IMG/VR virus record: IMGVR_UViG_3300045999_009824
Location: 1 to 33,786 of that record
Reading direction: 5' to 3' (one strand)
Length of the DNA stretch: 33,786 bases
DNA from: a virus
This document shows, piece by piece, positions 2,045 to 22,890 of this stretch. A model generated the notes under the pieces. It saw nothing but the letters and a program-made list of their open reading frames with translations. It was not told the origin of the DNA and made no database searches. The translations under genes and the position numbers were made by a program. The stretch's first letter is position 1. Each line of letters begins with the position of its first letter.

Positions 2045-3409
2045 TTATTTACTTAATTCAAAGAATTTTTGTTGAAGGACATCTCTATCTAAAGATGTGA
2101 CGTCACTAAAACTATTGACTGGTTTTGATGGAGTATATTGATCTGGATCATCATCATAATTGTCAAAGATTTCCATACGGCCTGTAGCTGTGTCAATTTT
2201 AGCACCGAATGTTAAACCATCCATGCCGTATCTATTTTTCATTATATGAAATCTACCTGTACCTTTCACTTTATCTTCTTTTTTACGTGAGAGAGAAATA
2301 GCCACATCCGTAATCATGATTTTGTCATAGCTACCTGCGGCTTTATCACCCTCGATGATATCATCTTTGGCTCCAGCACGGTTAACTTGTGATACACTCC
2401 AAATTGGAACTTTTAACTCACGAGCTAAACCTTTTGTGCTTACATAAATATCATCTATCTCATCTTTCCTCTCACGATTGTTTTTCTTTGAGCGAAGAAG
2501 ATCTACATAGTCAATAATAATCAAATCTGGTTTAAAACCTTGGTCAATACATTTTTGAACATGTGCTTCTAATGTTGAGATAGATGCTTTACCTGGTGAA
2601 TATTCTTTAACAACTAACTTACCTGGTAATTCAGTGATGATAGATTCAACTTTTTCTTTATATTTAGTAATTTCATTTACAGGAATACCTGTGAAGAAAG
2701 CATCGTATCGTCTACCTACATAATCTTCACCTAATTCAAGTGTGTAATGTACTACATTATAACCTAACTCAACAGCCATACCACCTAAAGCAATCAATGT
2801 CCATGATTTACCACCACCTGGATTACCAAATATCAATCCAAAATCACCATTACCTAACCCACCTTGCATTAAGTTGTTAAACATATCCCAAGGTGTAGGA
2901 ATAGCAATACGATGTTCTTCTCTATATCGTGTTTCAATATCTTTACTATATTCTAATCCTAAATTCTTATCACCACCTGCTTTTAAAGCATTATCAACTA
3001 ATCCTCTAATTGAGTCATAGTCACCTGCTTTTAATAAATCTACAGATGTTAATAGTGCTTTTTTAAGCTGTTGGTTTTTACAGAAGTTAGAAAATTCTTC
3101 TTCTACATAAGCTAAATCCTCATCTGATGCTTTATAGGCTTCTTTAAGTTGCTCTTTAACTGATACTTGTAATACTTCGTTTTCTAGTTTTTTAACTTCA
3201 ACTTTTAATATTTCCATACTAGGAACAGTATGGTATTTTTCATAGTATTTTAAGATTTCACTGATAATCCATTTGTGGCCACTACTTTCAAAGTATTCTT
3301 CACTTATGATATCATGTATATTAACTAGAAATTCTTTGTGTGTGAGTAAAGAAGATAAAACCTTAGTCTGGAAGTGTGTTCCATACTGTGATAAAGTTGA
3401 AAGTGTCAT
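2045..3409 (-). CDS. 41: Replicative DNA helicase, DnaB / T4 gp41 type
   Basis: Hexameric 5'-3' helicase that unwinds the fork, 454 residues. The N-terminal 150 residues are a mainly helical collar/primase-interaction region. The RecA-like motor follows: Walker A GNPGGGKS at 195-202, Walker B LIIIDYVDLL with Asp300, and the H3-type motif VSQVNR around Gln341. The C-terminal tail (430-454) is polar and ends in Lys. These are the DnaB-family motifs, and the length matches T4 gp41. No primase is encoded in this window, so a partner must lie elsewhere or come from the host. It lies in the middle of the replication block, 25 bases after the unknown gene at 3435-3956. No Shine-Dalgarno sequence precedes the ATG. 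Confidence 0.93.
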   Translation of the reverse strand: MTLSTLSQYGTHFQTKVLSSLLTHKEFLVNIHDIISEEYFESSGHKWIISEILKYYEKYHTVPSMEILKVEVKKLENEVLQVSVKEQLKEAYKASDEDLAYVEEEFSNFCKNQQLKKALLTSVDLLKAGDYDSIRGLVDNALKAGGDKNLGLEYSKDIETRYREEHRIAIPTPWDMFNNLMQGGLGNGDFGLIFGNPGGGKSWTLIALGGMAVELGYNVVHYTLELGEDYVGRRYDAFFTGIPVNEITKYKEKVESIITELPGKLVVKEYSPGKASISTLEAHVQKCIDQGFKPDLIIIDYVDLLRSKKNNRERKDEIDDIYVSTKGLARELKVPIWSVSQVNRAGAKDDIIEGDKAAGSYDKIMITDVAISLSRKKEDKVKGTGRFHIMKNRYGMDGLTFGAKIDTATGRMEIFDNYDDDPDQYTPSKPVNSFSDVTSLDRDVLQQKFFELSK

Positions 3410-3434: not shown

Positions 3435-3956
3435 TTATTTTTTTATTAATATAAAACCATCTTTGTAAGTGTCAAAATCAAAATCAGGAATTGATTGAAG
3501 TTGTTTTGATATAAAGGCTTTATATAAATTTGATTTTTGAGAGATATCTTTACTATCTAGTTCTTTTGGTGATGCCATAATAAACAATCCATCAATTCTA
3601 TTGATATAATTTATAAAATCTTTTACAATGTCTACCACTGTTGATAAAATAGAAAGTAATGTTTTTAAATCTGTTTTAGCAAATTGTATTTCAGTTCCAG
3701 CTACATCAAAACCAACATTATATATGTCATCTAACTGTCTATACTTAGGTGGGAAGTAAAGTTGTTTTTCAATACTACTTTTAAGTTGTTCAAATTCTAC
3801 AGTCACCACTTGAGTAAATTCTCCTATATCAACTAAAAACTTATATTGAGTTGAAGATACTTGAGTCCATTTTAAAGGAGGAATATTTGCTTCTCCAATT
3901 TCTTTTACAAGAATTTCCTGAATTAAAGGTATAAGTAGTGTTTTGTAAGATGCCAT
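3435..3956 (-). CDS. Unknown protein in the replication operon
   Basis: A 173-residue protein that I do not recognise. It has no signal peptide or clear membrane segment. A hydrophobic helical stretch (LLSILSTVVDIVKDFINYI, about 104-122) lies in the middle, and the C-terminus is mixed charged/aromatic. It lies 11 bases after the exonuclease stop and 25 bases before the helicase start, so it is cotranscribed with the replisome genes. The position suggests a replication accessory such as a helicase loader or clamp-related factor, but I see no motif (no Walker A, no zinc cysteines) to support any specific role. Confidence 0.8.
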   Translation of the reverse strand: MASYKTLLIPLIQEILVKEIGEANIPPLKWTQVSSTQYKFLVDIGEFTQVVTVEFEQLKSSIEKQLYFPPKYRQLDDIYNVGFDVAGTEIQFAKTDLKTLLSILSTVVDIVKDFINYINRIDGLFIMASPKELDSKDISQKSNLYKAFISKQLQSIPDFDFDTYKDGFILIKK

Positions 3957-5012: not shown

Positions 5013-6098
5013 TTATTCTTCGTCAATCAATGTTATGTTTTCTTTACTTTCTTCCCATTCTGATTTATCCTCAGTAAGACCAATACCATCAAGACTTCCT
5101 AAGATATGTACCCATTCATGAGCATGTTGTTTTTTATACTCATTAATATCTTTATTATCATCACTGATGAAACCATGAACTGTAGCTACTACTGTATTTT
5201 TAGTTTGTAATCCAGTAACATGGTTTTTATCTACTGATACTTTAGTGCGAACTGCGAATTCTACTTCTTTACCATCCTTAGTTGCTTTCAATTTACTAGT
5301 GCCACTATTAGTAATGTTACCAAATGTAAGCACAATTGAAGCATCTAAAAACATTGTTTCACCATTTTTCATCTTCATTTTAGGTTGAGCAAAAATATTT
5401 TCAGCTGGTGCGATCCAGATTTTATTAATTGCTACCATTGAATTTGTAAATTGTGAATTTTCTTTACGTGATAATGGAAAGCGTTGATTAATAAAATTTC
5501 CAAATTGTTGTGACATTGCACCCGCATTCCACATTGGATTGTTTTTATTTGCTTCAACACTCATTTTACAAGGTATAGATCCTATTGAATCCCAAAAGAA
5601 GCATAAATCATAAGGTAAATTACCTTTCTTTTGTTCATCTAATAAGTCAGCTATAAACTCTGCTACATCTTCAATAGTACCTAACGCACTTCTATCATTA
5701 TATAGGAAAAAACCTTTATAATCTACAATTTCACCTGTTGTTGTATCAACAACATCTTCAACTTGAAAACCCATTTGTTTAGCGTGCTCCCAAGACCATT
5801 TCATCTCTGTAATAATGAACACAGGCAAAATGCCCATTTTCTGGGCATTAATTGCCAACTCAAGTAAAGCTGTTGTTTTACCTGTATTACTGTGTCCTCT
5901 TAAAAGATTAATATGACCTATGGCTGCACCTGGAAGTGAAGTTGAATCTTGTAATGCTTCTGAAAATGGAATCCATCTCTGTTCTTTAAACTTAACTGTA
6001 CTGTTAAGTAATTTTTTTTCTTTGAATTTATCAAGGTTAAAATTAGCCTTAATTTCTTCAGAGACTGCTGTCATTAAAGATTCTTTCTTTTTAGCCAT
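5013..6098 (-). CDS. uvsX: UvsX-like RecA family recombinase
   Basis: Strand-exchange ATPase that forms filaments on single-stranded DNA and supports recombination-dependent replication and repair, 361 residues. Walker A is GHSNTGKTT (68-76), the catalytic-glutamate strand is FIITEMKWSW (Glu98), and Walker B is LCFFWDSIGSIP with Asp170. A short basic/polar N-terminal arm is expected for filament contacts, and the C-terminus is acidic (WEESKENITLIDEE), as is usual for RecA/UvsX. The NKIWIAPAENIF region corresponds to the strand after loop L1. It starts 20 bases after the gp32-like gene. T4 UvsX works with gp32 and UvsY; no UvsY candidate stands out in the window. Confidence 0.93.
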   Translation of the reverse strand: MAKKKESLMTAVSEEIKANFNLDKFKEKKLLNSTVKFKEQRWIPFSEALQDSTSLPGAAIGHINLLRGHSNTGKTTALLELAINAQKMGILPVFIITEMKWSWEHAKQMGFQVEDVVDTTTGEIVDYKGFFLYNDRSALGTIEDVAEFIADLLDEQKKGNLPYDLCFFWDSIGSIPCKMSVEANKNNPMWNAGAMSQQFGNFINQRFPLSRKENSQFTNSMVAINKIWIAPAENIFAQPKMKMKNGETMFLDASIVLTFGNITNSGTSKLKATKDGKEVEFAVRTKVSVDKNHVTGLQTKNTVVATVHGFISDDNKDINEYKKQHAHEWVHILGSLDGIGLTEDKSEWEESKENITLIDEE

Positions 6099-14437: not shown

Positions 14438-17400
14438 TTATGAAATATTAACAGAAGTCTTTTTAGCGGTATCTAATATAGTAGGCGTCACAGCGTACCC
14501 TACTTTTTTACCATCTATATTTAATTCTACTATTTTACTACTATTAGCCATCATATTTGTTAATCTATCTAGAGCTGCTACCACAGCCGCATTATTATTT
14601 TGAGTTATTGCTCCTTGACCACCACTATCACCAGAAGATAATTTATTAGTAGTGAAATAAACATTGTCTTCTTTGATACCTTGGGCTACAGGTTGTAATT
14701 GTCCTTTTTGGTATTTAGAAACAACTAAACCTCCATTAGGATTAAGACTACTATCTTGAACTTGAATAACACCATCTTTTACTTGAACAGCTCCATCTTG
14801 AAATATAGATTTAACAAAATCAGTAGCTTGATTATAAAGACTACTTACACCTGATTTCACAGTGTTGACCATTTGATCTATAGGACCTTCTGAAAATTTA
14901 TCATGGAGTTCTATGACTTTGTCTGTAACTTTAATAATAGGTTCAACATCACCCATACTTGTTATAGTACCATTAAGACCAGTGAATGACTCACTTAATT
15001 TAGTTAGAGCTTCAGCTAAAGTAATTATTTTACTTGAATCAATAGTAGTTAATTCTTTGAGTTGACTAATAATACTAGAATTAGATAATTTTTTTAAACT
15101 GTCAAAGACCTCATCCAAACGTTCAATACTATCAGCATTAGGAGCAATTTTAACTAGTTCATCAAGTCCTAATTTAAGATTTTGAGCAGCTTTTGCTATA
15201 TCTATATTAGATATGGTAGAGAATTGATTTAAATTATTTATATCTAATTCACTAATAACATCTTCTAATGCATCAAAGATATCTTCTACATTTTCTAATT
15301 GTTCAAAACCTGTTAATTTAACAAGTTCATCAAGTCCTAATTTAATGTTTTGGACAGCTTTTGTTAGATCTGTGTTGGCTAAAGTGGAAAATTGGGTTAA
15401 TGCATCTAAATCTAATTCACTAATAATGTCTTCTAAACTATCAAAAATGTCTTCTAAATTATTTAACTGTTCAAAACCTTTTTTATCTAGTGTTATTTTA
15501 GCTAATTCATCAAGTCCTAACTTAATATTTTGAGCAGATTTTGTTAAATCCGTATTTGCTAGAGCAGAAAATTGAGTTAATTCGTCTAAATCTAACTCAC
15601 TAATGATGTCTTCTATATAATCAAACGCTTCTTTTACTTTATCTAAATTAAGAAGAGTAGCTCCAGTTATATTAACATTCAAAGCGTTGAGCCCTTCAAT
15701 TACTTTTGTACCAGCACCTGCTAAATCTGCGTTAGCTAAATTAGCAAATTGAGTTAATTCGTCTAAATCTAACTCACCGATAATATCTTCTATATAGTCA
15801 AATGCTTCTTTTACTTTGTCTAGGTTAAGAAGAGTAGCTTCAGTTATATTAACATTTAAAGCATTAAGTCCTTCAACTATTTTTTGTCCAGCTCCAGCTA
15901 AATCCGCACTAGCTAATGATGAAAATTCAACTAAATTATCTAAATCTAACTCATCTAAAGCATCTTCTAATTTTTTAAAGACATCTTCTAAAGGACCAAG
16001 ATCTACATTACCTACTTTAGCCATTTCAAGTATACCATCTTTAAGAGATATAGCAGCTGGTTTAAAATCAACTTTTGATAATTCAACTAATGAATTTATT
16101 AATGAAAATAATCCACCTCCTCCTAAAAATGATGATGCTGCATCAGCTATTCCTGCTCCAGCAGCGGCTAAACCTAAAGCTCCAACTCCAACAGCTAAAG
16201 CTGATAAAGAAGCACCTAATGCTATTAATTCTAAAGGGTTTGCTTCTGTAGCTAACCTTACTAAACCATCAGCTATAGCAGTAATTATAGGAGGAACATT
16301 TTTTAATATTTTATCAAATACATTTCCTAAAGCTTCAAGGCCTGGTGTAGCTAAGTTTAAAGCAGCAGCTAATGGTAATAATGAGAATCCTAATGCACCT
16401 ATAGCTAAAGCACCTATTCCAATTTCAGGAGCTGCTTTACCAAGAATATAAGCTGCTGCTCCTAATCCAAGTAAGGCTACTCCAGCTTTACCCATATCAT
16501 CCCAATCAACATCCTCAAATTCTTGAAATGCCTTAGCTGCTACATATAACGCACCTGATAGGATTAATAACGCGCCTGCTCCTTTAATCATATTTCCGGC
16601 TGCTCCTCCAAGTAAATTACCAGAGGTTGCTGCTCCTTGTGATGCTTTAGTACCAATAGTACTCGCGCCAGTACTAGCTAATCCTTTTCCAGCAGCTTGA
16701 CGAGCGGCTACCATTTCTCGCTTATCAGCAAAACTAGTCGCTCCACCCATTCCAAAAAGTCCTTTAACTTTAGATAATAGCCCACCTCCTCCCATTCCTC
16801 CATCAGCTGATCTAACATAAAGAGGATTTCTTGCAGAGCCAGGAGAGCCCATTACTACATTTTTAACATTTTTAGCAAAATCAAAAACCCCAGCAGATTT
16901 CATTAAATTGAAACCTTTAAGGACTAAAATACCAGCTGTAATGGAACCAATATTATCTTTAGCAAATCCTAATACTCCTTTTAATGTATCACTAAACCAA
17001 ATAAGCCAAGACTTTATCTCATCTTTGTTTTCCATTATTGTGTCTATTGTACCACCAATAATATCTACGATTCCTCCACCTACTGATTCAATTACTTTAC
17101 CAATCTCAGGAGCAAATTCTACAAATAGAGCTGAAATTTTTTCGACTAATGGTAATAGTTTTTCTTTAATAAGAGGAACAATTTTCCCATCTAAAAGACT
17201 AAATAAAACACCTCCAAACACCCCAGCTATTTTAGTAACAGCTTTAGCTAAATCTAATATAGTGGGCATAATATTGTTTTTAAGGACATCACTCATTTCT
17301 CCTGCGCTATCAGGTGAAAAGAAAGCAGTAATTGCTTTACCTAACTCAACAAAAACAGGTCTCATGCCGTTTATCACAGTCATGAACATTTTTATGTTAT

Positions 17401-19474
17401 CTGGGCTGAATACTGCTTTAAATAATGGCCATAATCTTGTAGCCATATAGTCTCTAAAATCTTCTAGAGCACGAGACATAGCTTCTGCTCGTTTAGATTG
17501 GGCTAACTGAGTGGCTAAGCCTTCCTTAGCTAATTTATTAGCTGCTTCTTCTCGAGTTAAACCTTTTGACATATAAAATTGTAAACCTTTTTCAATGTCA
17601 ACTCTATCTTCACCCATTTTAGCAGCTAGCTCTTGAGTAGCTAATGCTTCAAGTAACTTATCTTTACCTATACCTATACTTTTAGCGAACTGATCTTGTA
17701 AAAGAACATTACCTTTAAGTTCATCTCCATGTTCAGCTATTAAATTATTTAATTCTTTAGCTGCTGTTGCTGAATCTCCTCGAAGAGCAGCTTGTTGATA
17801 AGCATCTAGATTCAATTCTTTACCAGACATTGCTTGGTAAGCAAGTTGGTCTTGAATTGATTGTTCAAAATTCAATGTTGCTTCAGATGCGGATGCTATT
17901 TCATCTAAAGTCATATTTAACTTAGTAGCATAAAATGCCGCGTCTGCTAATGCTTTAGGATTTTGAGATAAATTGTATTTAACAGCTGCACTTGCTTTAA
18001 GGGCAGTTTGTTCTACTTTTCTAAGATCTAAAGATATTTTATGTTCTTTATTTAATAATGTTCCTCTAGCTTTAATTTGAGTTACAGTGTCTGTAGCTGT
18101 TTGATTATTTAGTTGCCCTAACTTATAAAGTTGACCTGTTTCTTCAGCTGAGTATCCTAGCCAGTAAGAAAGATCATGGGCTTCTTTCACAGATTTAGTC
18201 ATCTGTGTTTGCATTATACCAGTACCGTCTACTATCGCTTTAAACGCAGGACCAGCCTCAGCCACTCGCATGAATGGATCTGCGGCAGCTGCTGCGTTTA
18301 AGCCAGCTGTTATTTTACCTACTTGTGCTCCAATAGCACTAAAGTTTTGAGCAGCGAATTGCCCTGCTTTAGCATATTTTTCAAATACAGCAGCAAATGA
18401 ATCTGCCATACCCCATAGGTTTTTAACAAAACCTACTACTGATCCAAATCCTTTACTTAATAATCCTACACCTTTTTTAATTAAACCTATACCTGCTGAT
18501 ACTGCTTTAGCCGCTAGTCCAGCTAAAACTAAAGGATCAGTTAGGTTTTTCATTATACTGCTACCTAAAGAACCAATACCTGCTTTTAAAATTTTAAATT
18601 GACCTACTAATCCTGCTGATTTTGTACCTCCTTTAGTAATCTGGTGGGCTACTTCTTTCATTTTTTCTTTAGCCTCATCTAAACCCATTTGGTTAACTAA
18701 TGATCCTAAACCTGCTTTTTTAAAAGCTTTACCTATACCATCTACAGCTGCTCCACTTAAACCAAGAGCTTTCTCAAGATTTTTAACTTTTTGAGTTTCT
18801 TCATCTATAGTTTTAAGTAAACCTTTATAAAGTTCATTTTGATTTTCTATAATTGAAGCGTTTTCTTCTAAAAGACCTTGAGTTTTACGTAAAAGTTTAC
18901 CTTGTTCTTTTTCTTTTTCACTTAAATCATCTAATATCTTTTGTTGTTCCTTAATTACATCTTGACTAGCATGTTGACGTTTTAATAAATCAATATCATA
19001 TTCTTTTTTCTTTTTTAAATTTTCAAGATTTTCTAATTCTAATTTTTGTTCTTTTTCTTTATCTTTTAATAATTCTTGAGCGTTTTCAAGTCTTTGTTTT
19101 TCAATTTCAGCTTTTTGTTTTTCTTTTTTAAGTTGTTCAGAAGAAAGCTCACTTATACCAAATTGATGAGACTGAATTCGGCTAGCTATAGATGCTAAAT
19201 TATTATAAACTTTATTAGATTCTTTTAAACCAACATTAGCATTACTAATTTCTTGAACAATTCTTTTAAATCCTACAGCAGCGTAAGATATTTCATCATT
19301 TTGTTCTTTAAATTCTTTATTAAGTTTTTCAAAAATAAACCTAATATTATCAGCACTTTTTTCTAGGTCTTGTAAATTAGTTGTGTCTACATTTTCTTTA
19401 AGAGCTTTAGAGAGTCTTTCTATCTCTAAAAGCATTTTCCTTAAATTATCTGCTTCCTGTGGGGTTAGTGCCAT
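14438..19474 (-). CDS. Tail tape measure protein
   Basis: Sets tail length and is threaded inside the tube, 1678 residues. The N-terminal 240 residues are a long charged coiled coil (KEKEQKLELENLENLKKKKE and similar). Glycine/alanine-rich hydrophobic segments follow at about 300-360 and 940-1120, as is usual for tape measures. A set of tandem repeats of 57-61 residues occupies about 1150-1500, and the C-terminus (KIVELNIDGKKVGYAVTPTI) is a typical tape-measure end. It directly follows the two-frame chaperone. At roughly 0.15 nm per residue, a value known for siphophage tape measures, the maximum length would be near 250 nm, much longer than the T4 tail. No lytic transglycosylase or peptidase motif was seen. 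Confidence 0.92.
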   Translation of the reverse strand: MALTPQEADNLRKMLLEIERLSKALKENVDTTNLQDLEKSADNIRFIFEKLNKEFKEQNDEISYAAVGFKRIVQEISNANVGLKESNKVYNNLASIASRIQSHQFGISELSSEQLKKEKQKAEIEKQRLENAQELLKDKEKEQKLELENLENLKKKKEYDIDLLKRQHASQDVIKEQQKILDDLSEKEKEQGKLLRKTQGLLEENASIIENQNELYKGLLKTIDEETQKVKNLEKALGLSGAAVDGIGKAFKKAGLGSLVNQMGLDEAKEKMKEVAHQITKGGTKSAGLVGQFKILKAGIGSLGSSIMKNLTDPLVLAGLAAKAVSAGIGLIKKGVGLLSKGFGSVVGFVKNLWGMADSFAAVFEKYAKAGQFAAQNFSAIGAQVGKITAGLNAAAAADPFMRVAEAGPAFKAIVDGTGIMQTQMTKSVKEAHDLSYWLGYSAEETGQLYKLGQLNNQTATDTVTQIKARGTLLNKEHKISLDLRKVEQTALKASAAVKYNLSQNPKALADAAFYATKLNMTLDEIASASEATLNFEQSIQDQLAYQAMSGKELNLDAYQQAALRGDSATAAKELNNLIAEHGDELKGNVLLQDQFAKSIGIGKDKLLEALATQELAAKMGEDRVDIEKGLQFYMSKGLTREEAANKLAKEGLATQLAQSKRAEAMSRALEDFRDYMATRLWPLFKAVFSPDNIKMFMTVINGMRPVFVELGKAITAFFSPDSAGEMSDVLKNNIMPTILDLAKAVTKIAGVFGGVLFSLLDGKIVPLIKEKLLPLVEKISALFVEFAPEIGKVIESVGGGIVDIIGGTIDTIMENKDEIKSWLIWFSDTLKGVLGFAKDNIGSITAGILVLKGFNLMKSAGVFDFAKNVKNVVMGSPGSARNPLYVRSADGGMGGGGLLSKVKGLFGMGGATSFADKREMVAARQAAGKGLASTGASTIGTKASQGAATSGNLLGGAAGNMIKGAGALLILSGALYVAAKAFQEFEDVDWDDMGKAGVALLGLGAAAYILGKAAPEIGIGALAIGALGFSLLPLAAALNLATPGLEALGNVFDKILKNVPPIITAIADGLVRLATEANPLELIALGASLSALAVGVGALGLAAAGAGIADAASSFLGGGGLFSLINSLVELSKVDFKPAAISLKDGILEMAKVGNVDLGPLEDVFKKLEDALDELDLDNLVEFSSLASADLAGAGQKIVEGLNALNVNITEATLLNLDKVKEAFDYIEDIIGELDLDELTQFANLANADLAGAGTKVIEGLNALNVNITGATLLNLDKVKEAFDYIEDIISELDLDELTQFSALANTDLTKSAQNIKLGLDELAKITLDKKGFEQLNNLEDIFDSLEDIISELDLDALTQFSTLANTDLTKAVQNIKLGLDELVKLTGFEQLENVEDIFDALEDVISELDINNLNQFSTISNIDIAKAAQNLKLGLDELVKIAPNADSIERLDEVFDSLKKLSNSSIISQLKELTTIDSSKIITLAEALTKLSESFTGLNGTITSMGDVEPIIKVTDKVIELHDKFSEGPIDQMVNTVKSGVSSLYNQATDFVKSIFQDGAVQVKDGVIQVQDSSLNPNGGLVVSKYQKGQLQPVAQGIKEDNVYFTTNKLSSGDSGGQGAITQNNNAAVVAALDRLTNMMANSSKIVELNIDGKKVGYAVTPTILDTAKKTSVNIS
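14990..16020 (-). repeat. Tandem 57-61-residue repeats inside the tape measure
   Basis: Five clear copies and one weaker copy of a unit with the core LDLDELTQFSALANTDL followed by a helix ending in GLDELVKL or GLNALNV. The closest pair starts near 15838 and 15663, 177 bases apart, and both carry the phrase ATLLNLDKVKEAFDYIED. The copies diverge toward the C-terminus, so this is an old duplication series with one recent step. Boundaries are approximate. Confidence 0.8.
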
Positions 19475-19496: not shown

Positions 19497-19506
19497 TTAT
19501 AAATAT
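19497..19506 (-). promoter_or_regulatory. Candidate late motif ATATTTATAA upstream of the tape measure
   Basis: An exact copy of the recurrent motif. Its core ends 23 bases before the tape measure ATG at 19474, and it abuts the stop codon of the chaperone's second frame. Confidence 0.4.
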
Positions 19507-19808
19507 TAATACTTTGGAGTTTTATTGGTTAACTTACCTTTAAAATGTTCAGGTAATTCAATTTTACCCTCTTTAATTTGACTAGTTTGAGATGCTAGAT
19601 CGCCTCCAGAATTATCTTTATTTTTTTCATCGTAATATTCTTTCATTTGATTGAAGGTAAATTTACGAAGCCAAATAGGCATATTGTAGACTGTCTCCCA
19701 ATCATAACCACCTTGACTATGAAAAACAATTTGATGTATATTAGTAAATAGACTAAATCTATACTGTTTGGCTAGTTCAGACGTCAGGCCAAAAAAACCT
19801 AAGTCCAA
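19506..19808 (-). CDS. Second frame of the tail assembly chaperone, probably made by frameshift
   Basis: Open frame ending at 19506 that overlaps the end of the gp26-type gene and lies just upstream of the tape measure. The only early start is a TTG at 19808 without a convincing ribosome binding site, and there is no early ATG. From base 19790 on, the frame encodes GLTSELAKQYRFSLFTNIHQ and then GYDWETVYNMPIWLRKFTF, the aromatic pattern typical of the second (T) part of tail chaperones. A shift on the seven T would join 240 residues of the first frame to 94 of this one, giving about 334 residues. I read it as the extension domain that binds the tape measure, not as an independent gene. Confidence 0.7.
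   Translation of the reverse strand: MDLGFFGLTSELAKQYRFSLFTNIHQIVFHSQGGYDWETVYNMPIWLRKFTFNQMKEYYDEKNKDNSGGDLASQTSQIKEGKIELPEHFKGKLTNKTPKY
19767..19797 (-). promoter_or_regulatory. Probable programmed frameshift site
   Basis: On the coding strand the first frame reads AGG TTT TTT TGG, with seven T at 19797-19791. The second frame is +1 relative to the first, so slippage of tRNA-Phe by +1 (or -2) on the T run gives GGC CTG ACG. A 6-base inverted repeat, TTTGGC (19793-19788) and GCCAAA (19772-19767), could form a hairpin with a 15-base loop that contains the first-frame stop TGA at 19779-19777. Confidence 0.6.
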
Positions 19809-20511
19809 TTGGAATGTCGACTTTCTCGTTACTCCCGTCGGGAAAAAAGGTTAAATCTACATCCGGTTGAACCTCCTTTATGTATTCCCTAAATGCTCTA
19901 GAATCACGAGCTAAGAAATGATTGTCAACAAATTCTCTAATAGTTTTACTATCTGTACTTCCATTAACAGATGTAATCATATATTTTAAACGAGTTGAAA
20001 GTTCACGAGAAGCAAACTTATCTATTTTTTTAATACCTTCTAACTCAGCATTAATTTTTCTTTCATCACTACCTGTGAGTAATTTGAATGTGATAGTTAC
20101 GCCTGTTGAAGGAAGAGTGTACTCAAATTCATTTTTACCTTTAATAAATAAATCTTCATTTAAAGGTTTGTTTTCAATAAGAGATAAATCAACTGTTTGC
20201 TCTTCACCATCATAAGTGAATGAATAATCTTTACCATAGCCTAAAATGCGAGCCGCTACTAGTAAAGCATTTTTATCACCTACAATTAAATCTTCATATT
20301 TAGCACCTGGTGTCATGATAAGAGATTTAATCAATTCATCTAATACTGTTCCTTTTTGAATGTAGGATTGGTTAGTAAGAATGTCTTCTTCTTTAGCAGT
20401 CATATACTTCATTTCAATTTTTCCATTTGAAAGAGGACTGTCTTCAGGATAAATTATACCTTTTGAGGGTAAATCAATAACTTCTGTTGGGATATTTAAC
20501 TTGTTTTCCAT
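19777..20511 (-). CDS. T4 gp26-type baseplate/tape-measure chaperone, first frame
   Basis: A 244-residue protein of the T4 baseplate-chaperone type. The N-terminus has the recognisable phrase VIDLPSKGIIYPEDSPLSNG followed by KIEMKYMTAKEEDILTN, which mark this family. The middle (LIKSLIMTPG, LLVAARILGYGKDYSFTYDG) and the helical ELEGIKKIDKFASRELSTRL segment complete the domain. T4 gp26 acts in hub assembly; in other phages the equivalent protein precedes the tape measure and chaperones it. Here it is in exactly that place, begins a transcription unit after a strong terminator, and ends in the slippery T run. The last residues (RFFWPDV) are made only if no shift occurs. Confidence 0.88.
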   Translation of the reverse strand: MENKLNIPTEVIDLPSKGIIYPEDSPLSNGKIEMKYMTAKEEDILTNQSYIQKGTVLDELIKSLIMTPGAKYEDLIVGDKNALLVAARILGYGKDYSFTYDGEEQTVDLSLIENKPLNEDLFIKGKNEFEYTLPSTGVTITFKLLTGSDERKINAELEGIKKIDKFASRELSTRLKYMITSVNGSTDSKTIREFVDNHFLARDSRAFREYIKEVQPDVDLTFFPDGSNEKVDIPIGLRFFWPDV

Positions 20512-20544: not shown

Positions 20545-20554
20545 TTATAAATAT
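20545..20554 (-). promoter_or_regulatory. Candidate late motif ATATTTATAA just after the terminator
   Basis: An exact motif copy that begins three bases past the T run of the terminator at 20558-20597, with its core ending 34 bases before the chaperone ATG. Because the terminator should stop upstream transcripts, a promoter is expected here, which supports the reading of this motif as a promoter element. Confidence 0.5.
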
Positions 20555-20557
20555 ATG

Positions 20558-20597
20558 AAAAAAAAAGAAGCATGCGTTTTTTCGCACACTTCTTTTT
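20558..20597 (-). terminator. Strong intrinsic terminator after the tail tube gene
   Basis: Minus-strand arms at 20597-20583 and 20576-20562 form a 15-base stem with two G-U pairs around a loop of six A. The stem includes the GC-containing part GTGCG/CGCAT and is followed by a run of T (nine T counting those in the stem foot, 20566-20558). It lies 24 bases past the tube stop codon. The A/T flanks make it potentially bidirectional. Confidence 0.88.
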
Positions 20598-20620
20598 AAT
20601 CTTATGTATTTCTTTTGTTT

Positions 20621-21109
20621 TTAGAAATTTAAAACAGCGTAATCAATAGCTAATGTCATAGTAATGTTTACAGCTGTATTTTCAGTATCCCAGTTATATT
20701 CACCAAAGTTAGCATCTTTTACAAATGCGCCTTTAAGTACCCACTCGGCTACTACATCACCAACAGGGCCTAACACATTGATAGTTAAATCTTTCTTATA
20801 GAAATCAGAGTAACCATCTCTACCTGTAACAGATTCGTGTGATAAACGAACCCATTCCATAATTGTTTGAGCTCCAGAAGGTGTAATTGGATCAAATAGA
20901 GTCATTGTAACATCACCCCAAACACTCTTACCTTTTACTTTACGTAAAACGTTAATGTGGTTCAAAATTACTTCACCCTGTGTTAAACTTACCGCACTAA
21001 CACCTTTAATAATGTAGCTTGGGATTCCATCAGCGTACAGGATAAATCTATTTGCCTGTTTTGGTTCAAACGCTGTATAAAACATATCATTTACGTCTAG
21101 TATTGCCAT
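20621..21109 (-). CDS. 19: Tail tube protein, T4 gp19-like
   Basis: Major tube subunit, 162 residues, close to the 163 of T4 gp19. The family pattern is present: an N-terminal FEPKQANRFILYADGIPSYI (a strand with the conserved NRF), GDVTMTLFDPITPSGAQTIM in the middle, the RDGYSDFYKKDLTINVLGPV strand and a final NITMTLAIDYAVLNF strand. The protein forms hexameric rings stacked inside the sheath. It is 47 bases downstream of the sheath gene with a copy of the candidate late motif between them, and it is followed by the strong terminator, so sheath and tube form one unit made in high amount. Confidence 0.93.
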   Translation of the reverse strand: MAILDVNDMFYTAFEPKQANRFILYADGIPSYIIKGVSAVSLTQGEVILNHINVLRKVKGKSVWGDVTMTLFDPITPSGAQTIMEWVRLSHESVTGRDGYSDFYKKDLTINVLGPVGDVVAEWVLKGAFVKDANFGEYNWDTENTAVNITMTLAIDYAVLNF

Positions 21110-21156: not shown

Positions 21157-22890
21157 TTACGCTGGGAAAGTAGCTCCAGTTGGTGTGAGTGTAAAGTTCA
21201 AATAAATAAATTCAGCTGTCTTAGTTGGTTGTAAATAGATTTGACCTACTAATTCATTTCTATCAATTACAGCTGGGTTATTAATAGCTTCATCCATTAC
21301 TACTTTGAAAGCAAATAAACCTTGTCTTTGTTGAACTGATTCAAGATATGGGTTTACTTGAGCTAAGAAGCTATTTCTAGTAGCAGCAGTGTTTTGTTGG
21401 AATACTATGCTATTAGCTACTTGACCAATAAATCCTTTAAGAGCAATCATTAATCTTCTAACATTCACACGGTCTAAAGCTGAGGCAGCTGTTTGAAGTG
21501 TTTTCTGACCATATACTACAACACCTTGTCCTGGGAATGTAGCGATTGGGTTAACTTTACCTTGATATAATGAATCTCTAACAGCTTGTGGTAATTTAAT
21601 TTCCGCTCTAGTTACTGTTGATAATCCACCTCTGTTAATACCAGCAGGTGCAAACCATGGTTCTGATACACTGTCATTATAAGCATATACTCCACCAATC
21701 ATTGTTGAGGCAGGAACCCAAACATACTTCTCAGTAGCAGGATCAAGAGTTTGAACCCAAGGCCAATAAGCAGCTGCGTATGAAGAATCAATACTATTAG
21801 CTTGAGTAGTTACAGCTGAAGAAGCTGTTTGACCATACTTAATCAAATCTACTACATAGATATTATCTCCTCTATCTTGAGTATTTGTGATTATACTATT
21901 TATTTGAGCACTATGAGCGTTATAAGTTAAACCAGGAGTTAATAAAGTATTAAATTGGAAATCTGTTGGGCTAGCTAGCAAATCAATAGCGTTTTGATAA
22001 TCACTACCACTTAATCCTTGAGTATTATTAGCGTCAGCTCCTGCTGCCTCATAAAATAAAGCACCACCCATTACTGAACCTGTAGCACCGCCAAAACCTA
22101 TAGCTATTCCGCCTGATGAGGCTAATGGAATAGAACCAGTATAAGCTAGTTTAGCTACTCCACCTACAAGATATTGAGGTGTTGGTGAGTCTACACTTGC
22201 TACTCTAATATAACGAGATTTATTTGGATAAGTACCACTAACTTGTAAAGTTTTAGTACCATCTATATTAGAGATATTAAATGAATAATCACCAATTACT
22301 TTAGAAATATAATTATTAGCTAATGGATCTAAAGATAAATTAGACCATGTTTCTAAAACAATATTATTTTTAGTTGTATCATCACCTCTTCTAACAAATA
22401 AACTAAATGTTCCTGAAGATGTGTCTGGGTTACTAATCTGAACACGAATGTTGTTAATAGATCCAGAAGGTAAAGCTCCTCTAGAGTCAGCTGAGCTAGA
22501 ATTGTTCATCAGTGCTCCTTGAGAAATGGTAGCTAAAGTAAAAGCAAATGGGCTAGCTCCAGTTGTTCCACTTCCAGTAGGAATACTAGCTGTAGCTGAG
22601 GTGTAGGTGCCGTTAGCAACTCTTGTTACTAATAAGTTTTGACCGCCATTGTTAAAGTAGTTATAAGCTGCTATAGAAGTAAAATATGAATAAATTCCAC
22701 TTCCGCTTTCTAAAACATCACCAAATCTGTCTACGAAATCAGAGTATGATGTAACTGATACAGGTACATTTACAGGGCCCCTAACTGTTGGGCCTATAAT
22801 CGCAGCACCAATTACTGGTGGTTGTTCTGCTATAAATGAAGCGTCTATTTCTCTTTGTAGTACGCCGGGTGATAATAAAATGTTTGCCAT
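21157..22890 (-). CDS. 18: Contractile tail sheath protein, T4 gp18-like
   Basis: Sheath subunit that contracts to drive the tube through the envelope, 577 residues. The N-terminus MANILLSPGVLQREIDASFI and IIGPTVRGPVNVPVSVTSYS is the classic sheath start. The central part is a variable Ser/Gly-rich surface domain. The C-terminal half carries the conserved core: KVNPIATFPGQGVVVYGQKT, LDRVNVRRLMIALKGFI, and the final strands KTAEFIYLNFTLTPTGATF that make the inter-subunit mesh. Its presence shows the phage is a myovirus type. It has no Shine-Dalgarno sequence, and a candidate late motif lies 28 bases before the ATG. Confidence 0.96.
   Translation of the reverse strand: MANILLSPGVLQREIDASFIAEQPPVIGAAIIGPTVRGPVNVPVSVTSYSDFVDRFGDVLESGSGIYSYFTSIAAYNYFNNGGQNLLVTRVANGTYTSATASIPTGSGTTGASPFAFTLATISQGALMNNSSSADSRGALPSGSINNIRVQISNPDTSSGTFSLFVRRGDDTTKNNIVLETWSNLSLDPLANNYISKVIGDYSFNISNIDGTKTLQVSGTYPNKSRYIRVASVDSPTPQYLVGGVAKLAYTGSIPLASSGGIAIGFGGATGSVMGGALFYEAAGADANNTQGLSGSDYQNAIDLLASPTDFQFNTLLTPGLTYNAHSAQINSIITNTQDRGDNIYVVDLIKYGQTASSAVTTQANSIDSSYAAAYWPWVQTLDPATEKYVWVPASTMIGGVYAYNDSVSEPWFAPAGINRGGLSTVTRAEIKLPQAVRDSLYQGKVNPIATFPGQGVVVYGQKTLQTAASALDRVNVRRLMIALKGFIGQVANSIVFQQNTAATRNSFLAQVNPYLESVQQRQGLFAFKVVMDEAINNPAVIDRNELVGQIYLQPTKTAEFIYLNFTLTPTGATFPA

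Follow-up and report, generated by a model that had tools for sequence, protein, structure and literature searches.

The question raised by this locus was whether a phage tail chaperone gene, which ends in a run of T and overlaps a second open frame, encodes one protein or two, and, if two, how ribosomes would reach the second frame. The window (the whole stretch of viral DNA that was analyzed, 33,786 nucleotides of IMG/VR record IMGVR_UViG_3300045999_009824) carries this gene on the minus strand at 20511..19777, where an open reading frame belonging to PF12322 encodes a 244-aa chaperone of the T4 gp26 (tail/tape-measure) type, the predicted short product. All of the window features described below are on the minus strand. 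Frame 0 ends CTT AGG (19800-19798) TTT TTT (19797-19792) TGG (19791-19789) CCT GAC GTC TGA, with its stop codon at 19777..19779. The slippery run of seven T, identified from the sequence and the survey of junctions described below, consists of TTT TTT and the T of TGG and occupies 19791..19797. Immediately after it, a dual-coded stretch GGCCTGACGTC (19780..19790) encodes (W)PDV in frame 0 and GLT(S) in the +1 frame, and the +1-frame extension runs for 94 aa, from GGC at 19790-19788 to TAA at 19508-19506 (19506..19790). The +1 frame is already open upstream of the site. The trans-frame product would be about 334 aa in length.

The gene directly downstream encodes a 1678-aa protein (14438..19474), presumed from its position and size to be the tail tape measure, and its ATG at 19474 is separated from the TAA of the second frame by 31 bases. 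The corresponding downstream slot is annotated as tape measure in the Immutovirus and SP-15 records. Upstream are a gp19-like tail tube gene (20621..21109; phrog_4542, E 2.7e-19) and a tail sheath gene (21157..22890; phrog_23, E 9e-79), which puts the chaperone gene in the usual position for tail assembly chaperones. A terminator-like hairpin with a T run is present between the tail tube and chaperone genes (20553-20600), and downstream of the tail genes are a DnaB-like replicative helicase and a UvsX-like recombinase (2045-3409 and 5013-6098). The nearest isolated phages were Immutovirus of Flavobacterium, and contigs co-binned in genome assemblies were mostly in Flavobacteriales bins, making a Bacteroidota host likely. 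The virus is a phage of the T4-type contractile group, probably one that infects Bacteroidota.

A preliminary description of this DNA had read the gene as a tail chaperone whose translation probably involves a programmed shift, either +1 or -2, on the seven T. Its account of the gene coordinates, the AGG TTT TTT TGG end, the +1 second frame reaching 19506 and the 31-base gap agreed with the sequence in every detail. It had also argued that a -1 shift does not reach the second frame, and this was borne out: the -1 frame is closed by a stop within about 4 nt in the window, and is closed in nearly all close relatives as well. A canonical -1 site of the X_XXY_YYZ type, from which the second ORF could be entered in the -1 frame, was therefore absent from the window and was found only in distant homologs.

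To examine the frame relation in relatives, 80 close relatives were collected in an IMG/VR scan, and further scans yielded several hundred loci; a scan of viral sequences with a jumbo-phage homolog (L003) as query gave no matches. In all of the first-round loci with a complete junction, the chaperone ended with Phe-Phe-Trp-Pro or a near variant and the second frame was +1, and in most of them the tape measure gene was next. Among the first relatives collected, the +1 relation together with a UUU_Y or CUU_U site was present in 195 of 195 distinct junctions. The sequence at the site was TTT TTT TGG in 151 of these, TTT CTT TGG in 29, CTT TTT TGG in four, TTT CTA TGG and TTT TTT TAC in three each, TTT TTT TTC in two, and TTT CTT TAC, TTT CTA TTC and TTC TTT CGT in one each. 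In other words, while the frame relation and the type of site were kept in relatives, the T run itself was interrupted by C (TTT CTT, TTT CTA or TTC TTT) in 35 of the 195.

The same arrangement was recovered when the second-frame peptide was the sole query. This search yielded 80 loci; the chaperone was upstream in every one of them, and the relation was +1 in 78. One of the other two (L343) had a 1-base indel upstream and was rejected as an exception to the relation, and the other (L311) had lost the slippery site. The site was present in 49 of 51 further junctions obtained from this search, and the remaining two were explained. One locus (L046, around 3729-3810) had a stop that cut the second frame after 26 aa, with the junction upstream intact; the relatives L041-L043 read through at this point, so the stop is probably a sequence error. 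In total the arrangement was found in hundreds of contigs and in the isolated phages Immutovirus, Mel-JY01 and RM378. In the records of Immutovirus, Mel-JY01 and SP-15 the second frame was annotated in parts only, as separate hypothetical proteins.

The junctions interrupted by C distinguish between several mechanisms that would otherwise predict the same product. A -2 ribosomal frameshift, as in phage Mu or arteriviruses, would also reach the second frame with one extra Phe, and seven T do permit -2 re-pairing of the second UUU (PMC5009743). At the 35 interrupted junctions, however, -2 re-pairing fails or needs mismatches, whereas +1 re-pairing works, either by movement of tRNA-Phe from UUU to UUC, which is cognate, or by movement of tRNA-Leu from CUU to UUU. 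RNA polymerase slippage, with one T lost from part of the mRNA, could in principle occur on a run of this length and would also give the second frame, but the frame relation is kept in the 35 distinct junctions in which the run is broken. Homopolymers are error-prone in sequencing, and a miscounted run, with the two frames in reality continuous, had been raised in the preliminary description; this arrangement in hundreds of contigs, in isolated phages and at sites lacking a 7-base run argues against such an error. The interrupted variants (TTTCTTT, TTTCTA) exclude all three as a shared mechanism. For the window, we regard a -2 shift as very improbable, RNA polymerase slippage as more improbable still, and sequencing error as having a negligible probability, since on the comparison of relatives it is already refuted.

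The evidence therefore favors the +1 half of the earlier proposal, and we consider it very probable that the chaperone gene contains a programmed +1 frameshift. The favored event is that the P-site tRNA slips from UUU onto UUU or UUC, and a slip from CUU to UUU is possible. At the interrupted sites the slipping codon could be either UUU or CUU; for the TTT CTA sites, no slip other than one on the first UUU would account for the shift. At prfB, +1 shifting has been documented on CUU_U as well as on UUU_U (PMC5009743).

The purity of the T run was not in itself accepted as proof. Of the Phe codons in these genes 88% were TTT, and Phe-Phe pairs were TTTTTT in 70 of 73 cases, so a pure run of seven T is weak evidence when taken alone; the site at -69 was likewise all TTT. 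A second TTT TTT (ACC TTT TTT CCC), in frame 0 and 51 bases upstream (19843-19848), was near-invariant, probably because of the same codon bias.

Substitution patterns indicated that the second frame is coding. Beyond the frame-0 stop, pN/pS was 0.34-0.44 in the +1 frame, compared to 1.0-1.35 for the same DNA in the other two frames and 0.30-0.32 for frame 0 of the chaperone, a pattern of purifying selection. The frame-0 codons that follow the site were near-invariant, with CCT in 48 of 49 and GAC in 47 of 49, while CCT accounted for 34% of Pro codons, and GAC for 28% of those for Asp, elsewhere in these genes. Upstream of the site, third positions varied freely. Together these observations indicate that double coding starts at the slippery site.

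A coding second frame might also be a gene of its own, with translation beginning at TTG 19808 or a non-standard codon. As the preliminary description had noted, the +1 frame of the window has no early ATG, and none was found before the conserved NMPIW block. The sole possible early start in the window was the TTG at 19808 (-29), which is present in many close relatives, yet is not conserved, and which arises incidentally from (I/V)-G codons of frame 0. In 36 of the 195 distinct junctions the +1 frame contained no ATG, GTG or TTG ahead of the conserved block, and at least 12 junctions had a +1-frame stop immediately before the slippery codon, in which case the frame-0 stop may come only 15 nt past the first base of that codon. 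An independent start cannot explain the junctions of either kind. At 19857-19878, inside the chaperone gene, there is an AAGGAGG with ATGTAG 9 bases on; in the +1 frame this is a start followed immediately by a stop, and it needs a GTA codon that is variable among relatives. Two further points in favor of an independent gene are that cyanophage annotations list a separate gp51, and that a separate second part started at ATG does occur in two lineages. Wherever such a start exists, the slippery site has been lost, and we judge an independent gene in the window to be very unlikely.

Relatives in which the second part has its own start had been envisaged in the preliminary description as evidence against frameshifting. 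The two lineages that have it (L353-L355 with L311 and L352, and L370) were not sisters in a FastTree tree, and in both the site had become TTC TTC TGG CCA/CCC GAT, so that neither the slippery codons nor CCT GAC, which are fixed elsewhere, had been retained. That these lineages lost the slippery site supports the frameshift reading rather than opposing it. In L370, whose site is TTC TTC TGG CCC GAT and whose second part starts at an ATG of its own, a GIY-YIG homing endonuclease (L370:2323-2907; PF01541, E 1.4e-8) is encoded exactly between the two chaperone parts, and the TTC TTC recoding could protect the site from the endonuclease. The same split was found without an endonuclease in L311 (1465-1791) and its relatives. 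The separated second parts have a common N-terminal 'RNQLA' stretch, and a single cassette may have spread between the split lineages, so the split counts as one or two events. Either way, site loss and the gain of an independent start are coupled.

None of the usual stimulators of frameshifting was detected at the site. The 6-base inverted repeat to which the preliminary description drew attention is present in the window but not conserved; just 11 of 173 distinct junctions retained it, and it was rejected as a stimulator. No conserved downstream RNA structure was found (all-family consensus -1.8 kcal/mol, shuffled -0.5). There was no Shine-Dalgarno-like element upstream of the site, where the codons vary (AGC, AAC, AAG, AGG), and no A-site stop, the codons after the site being sense codons. 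A +1 site that is deeply conserved with no detectable stimulator is unusual.

The family to which the two parts belong was identified mainly by comparison of profiles. The frame-0 protein of the window scored 24.5 bits against PF12322 (T4_baseplate), which is exactly the gathering cut-off, and the relatives GXN1 and RM378 were clearly above it; the frame-0 protein also matched phrog_150, baseplate hub (E 8.5e-10). In T4, gp26 and gp51 are both members of PF12322, and a C-terminal extension is present in gp51 and absent from gp26. The trans-frame profile aligned with gp51 along its whole length including the C-terminus (E 7.5e-8) and with cyanophage proteins (E 5e-18), while the alignment with gp26 ended at Phe-Phe; each of these E-values, and those of the other profile-profile matches, is from a single profile comparison. 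The second-frame domain alone aligned with the C-terminus of gp51 in the correct place with a score of 24.2, compared to at most 15.9 in 40 permuted controls. The cyanophage domain annotated as gp51 provided a bridge, matching the T4 gp51 C-terminus (E 2e-11) on one side and the second part of the window family (E 3.1e-9, score 47.9; best of 40 permuted controls 16.0) on the other. By these profile comparisons, the second part and the C-terminal domain of T4 gp51 are homologs.

This result depended on both profile-profile comparison and the bridge through cyanophages, because a HMMER comparison of gp51 with the second-frame ORFs was not significant. The second-frame peptide of the window had no match in Pfam or PHROGs at the usual cut-off, and weak matches of the second part were to phrog_634 'baseplate hub assembly catalyst' and phrog_32580 'tail assembly chaperone'. 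A confident AlphaFold model of the frame-0 protein (pLDDT 91.7) had as its top PDB match the HK97 tail assembly chaperone 2ob9, with a non-significant E of 0.74 and a TM of 0.44 of the target. A fold search with the second domain gave no matches.

The arrangement can be compared with that of lambda, in which the gpG/gpGT tail assembly chaperone frameshift was reportedly described by Xu, Hendrix and Duda in 2004 and is reviewed in PMC5009743. In both cases two overlapping ORFs are located just upstream of the tape measure gene, a slippery site is found at the 3' end of the first, and a short product is accompanied by a rarer, C-terminally extended one. Of the features of a G/GT-type system, overlapping ORFs beside the tape measure gene, a second ORF without its own start and a conserved slippery site in the overlap were found here. 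Chaperones of this type are further characterized by their absence from the virion. Unlike lambda, in which the shift is -1 on a GGGAAAG-type heptamer, the predicted shift here is +1 on UUU_Y, and the phage is of the T4 contractile type, a group that the review sets apart as the exception ('except T4'; PMC5009743). No sequence relation of the chaperone to lambda gpG or gpT was detected. The sites resemble prfB (RF2) CUU_UGA in the forward slip on CUU_U or UUU_U, with both codon types among the phage sites, but lack the A-site stop and the Shine-Dalgarno-like stimulator of prfB. Frameshifts of +1 in tail genes are also known from Listeria phage PSA, in which the site is CCC_U in the tail shaft gene, and from halovirus HSTV-2, for which a shift was inferred in the tail chaperone; both are from different phage groups.

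In the mechanism proposed for the window, most ribosomes would stop at the TGA at 19779 and produce the 244-aa chaperone of the T4 gp26 type. At a rate that we infer to be low, the peptidyl-tRNA on UUU would slip one base forward to UUU or UUC, and the shifted ribosome would continue in the +1 frame to give the chaperone of about 334 aa with the 94-aa C-terminal domain. If the analogy with lambda gpG/gpGT holds, the N-terminal part common to both products would coat or bind the tape measure protein, and the C-terminal domain, present only in the rarer product, would recruit tail tube subunits.

According to PMC5009743, long-tailed phages other than T4 share tail-chaperone frameshifting as a conserved trait, and PMC3004832 describes gp51 as an essential protein of T4 whose function is unknown. 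In the cyanophages S-PM2 (L433:472-1364), S-RIM44, S-SKS1, ACG-2014f, P-HM2, P-RSM4 and S-H34, gp26 ended with T_TTT_TTC and the gp51 domain was in the -1 frame, and the same was true of ACP17, Yut2, OLIVR5 and Aeromonas phage 65, which is a member of T4's own family, the Straboviridae (the -1 loci other than S-PM2 are L434-L442 and L444). Vibrio phage K355 was the only one of twelve examined without T_TTT_TTC. The homologs L248 and L251 also had T_TTT_TTC and the -1 frame, while SP-15, LIS04, GXN1 and RM378 had +1 arrangements. As in the window, the slippery site in the cyanophages, Aeromonas phage 65, ACP17, Yut2 and OLIVR5 is at the same Phe-Phe and the gp51 domain is directly downstream in another frame; unlike the window, the site is a canonical -1 site, and the two parts are annotated as separate genes or the second is unannotated. 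This suggests unannotated -1 frameshifting in the gp26 genes of these phages. Shifts in either direction at one Phe-Phe pair are as expected if the pair of short and long products is selected, rather than the direction.

T4 itself has two separate, paralogous genes of this family where the window has one frameshifted gene, with gp26 corresponding to the short product up to Phe-Phe and gp51 to the trans-frame product with its C-terminal domain. From these sequence relationships it is likely that an ancestral T4-type phage had a frameshifted short/long chaperone, with the shift being +1 or -1 at one Phe-Phe, and that in T4 this was replaced by two genes, 26 for the short form and 51 for the long. 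The shift would then be +1 (UUU_Y) in the Bacteroidota-type phages, SP-15 and RM378, and -1 (U_UUU_UUC) in the cyanophages, Aeromonas phage 65 and others. Replacement by two genes would explain why T4 is listed in the review as the exception to frameshifting. No description of frameshifting in the PF12322 gp26/gp51 family was found in the open-access literature. The assignment of roles is not wholly new, since gp26 and gp51 are annotated in Konradin as 'tape measure protein assembly chaperone'.

If this reading is true, T4 is no real exception to the lambda G/GT rule, and for gp26 and gp51 it yields a testable hypothesis, in which they are the short and the long form of one chaperone. The separate 'gp51' genes in cyanophage annotations would, as the -1 sites suggest, be the ends of frameshifted proteins, and the T4 gp26/gp51 family would be one in which frameshifts occur in both directions at a single homologous site.
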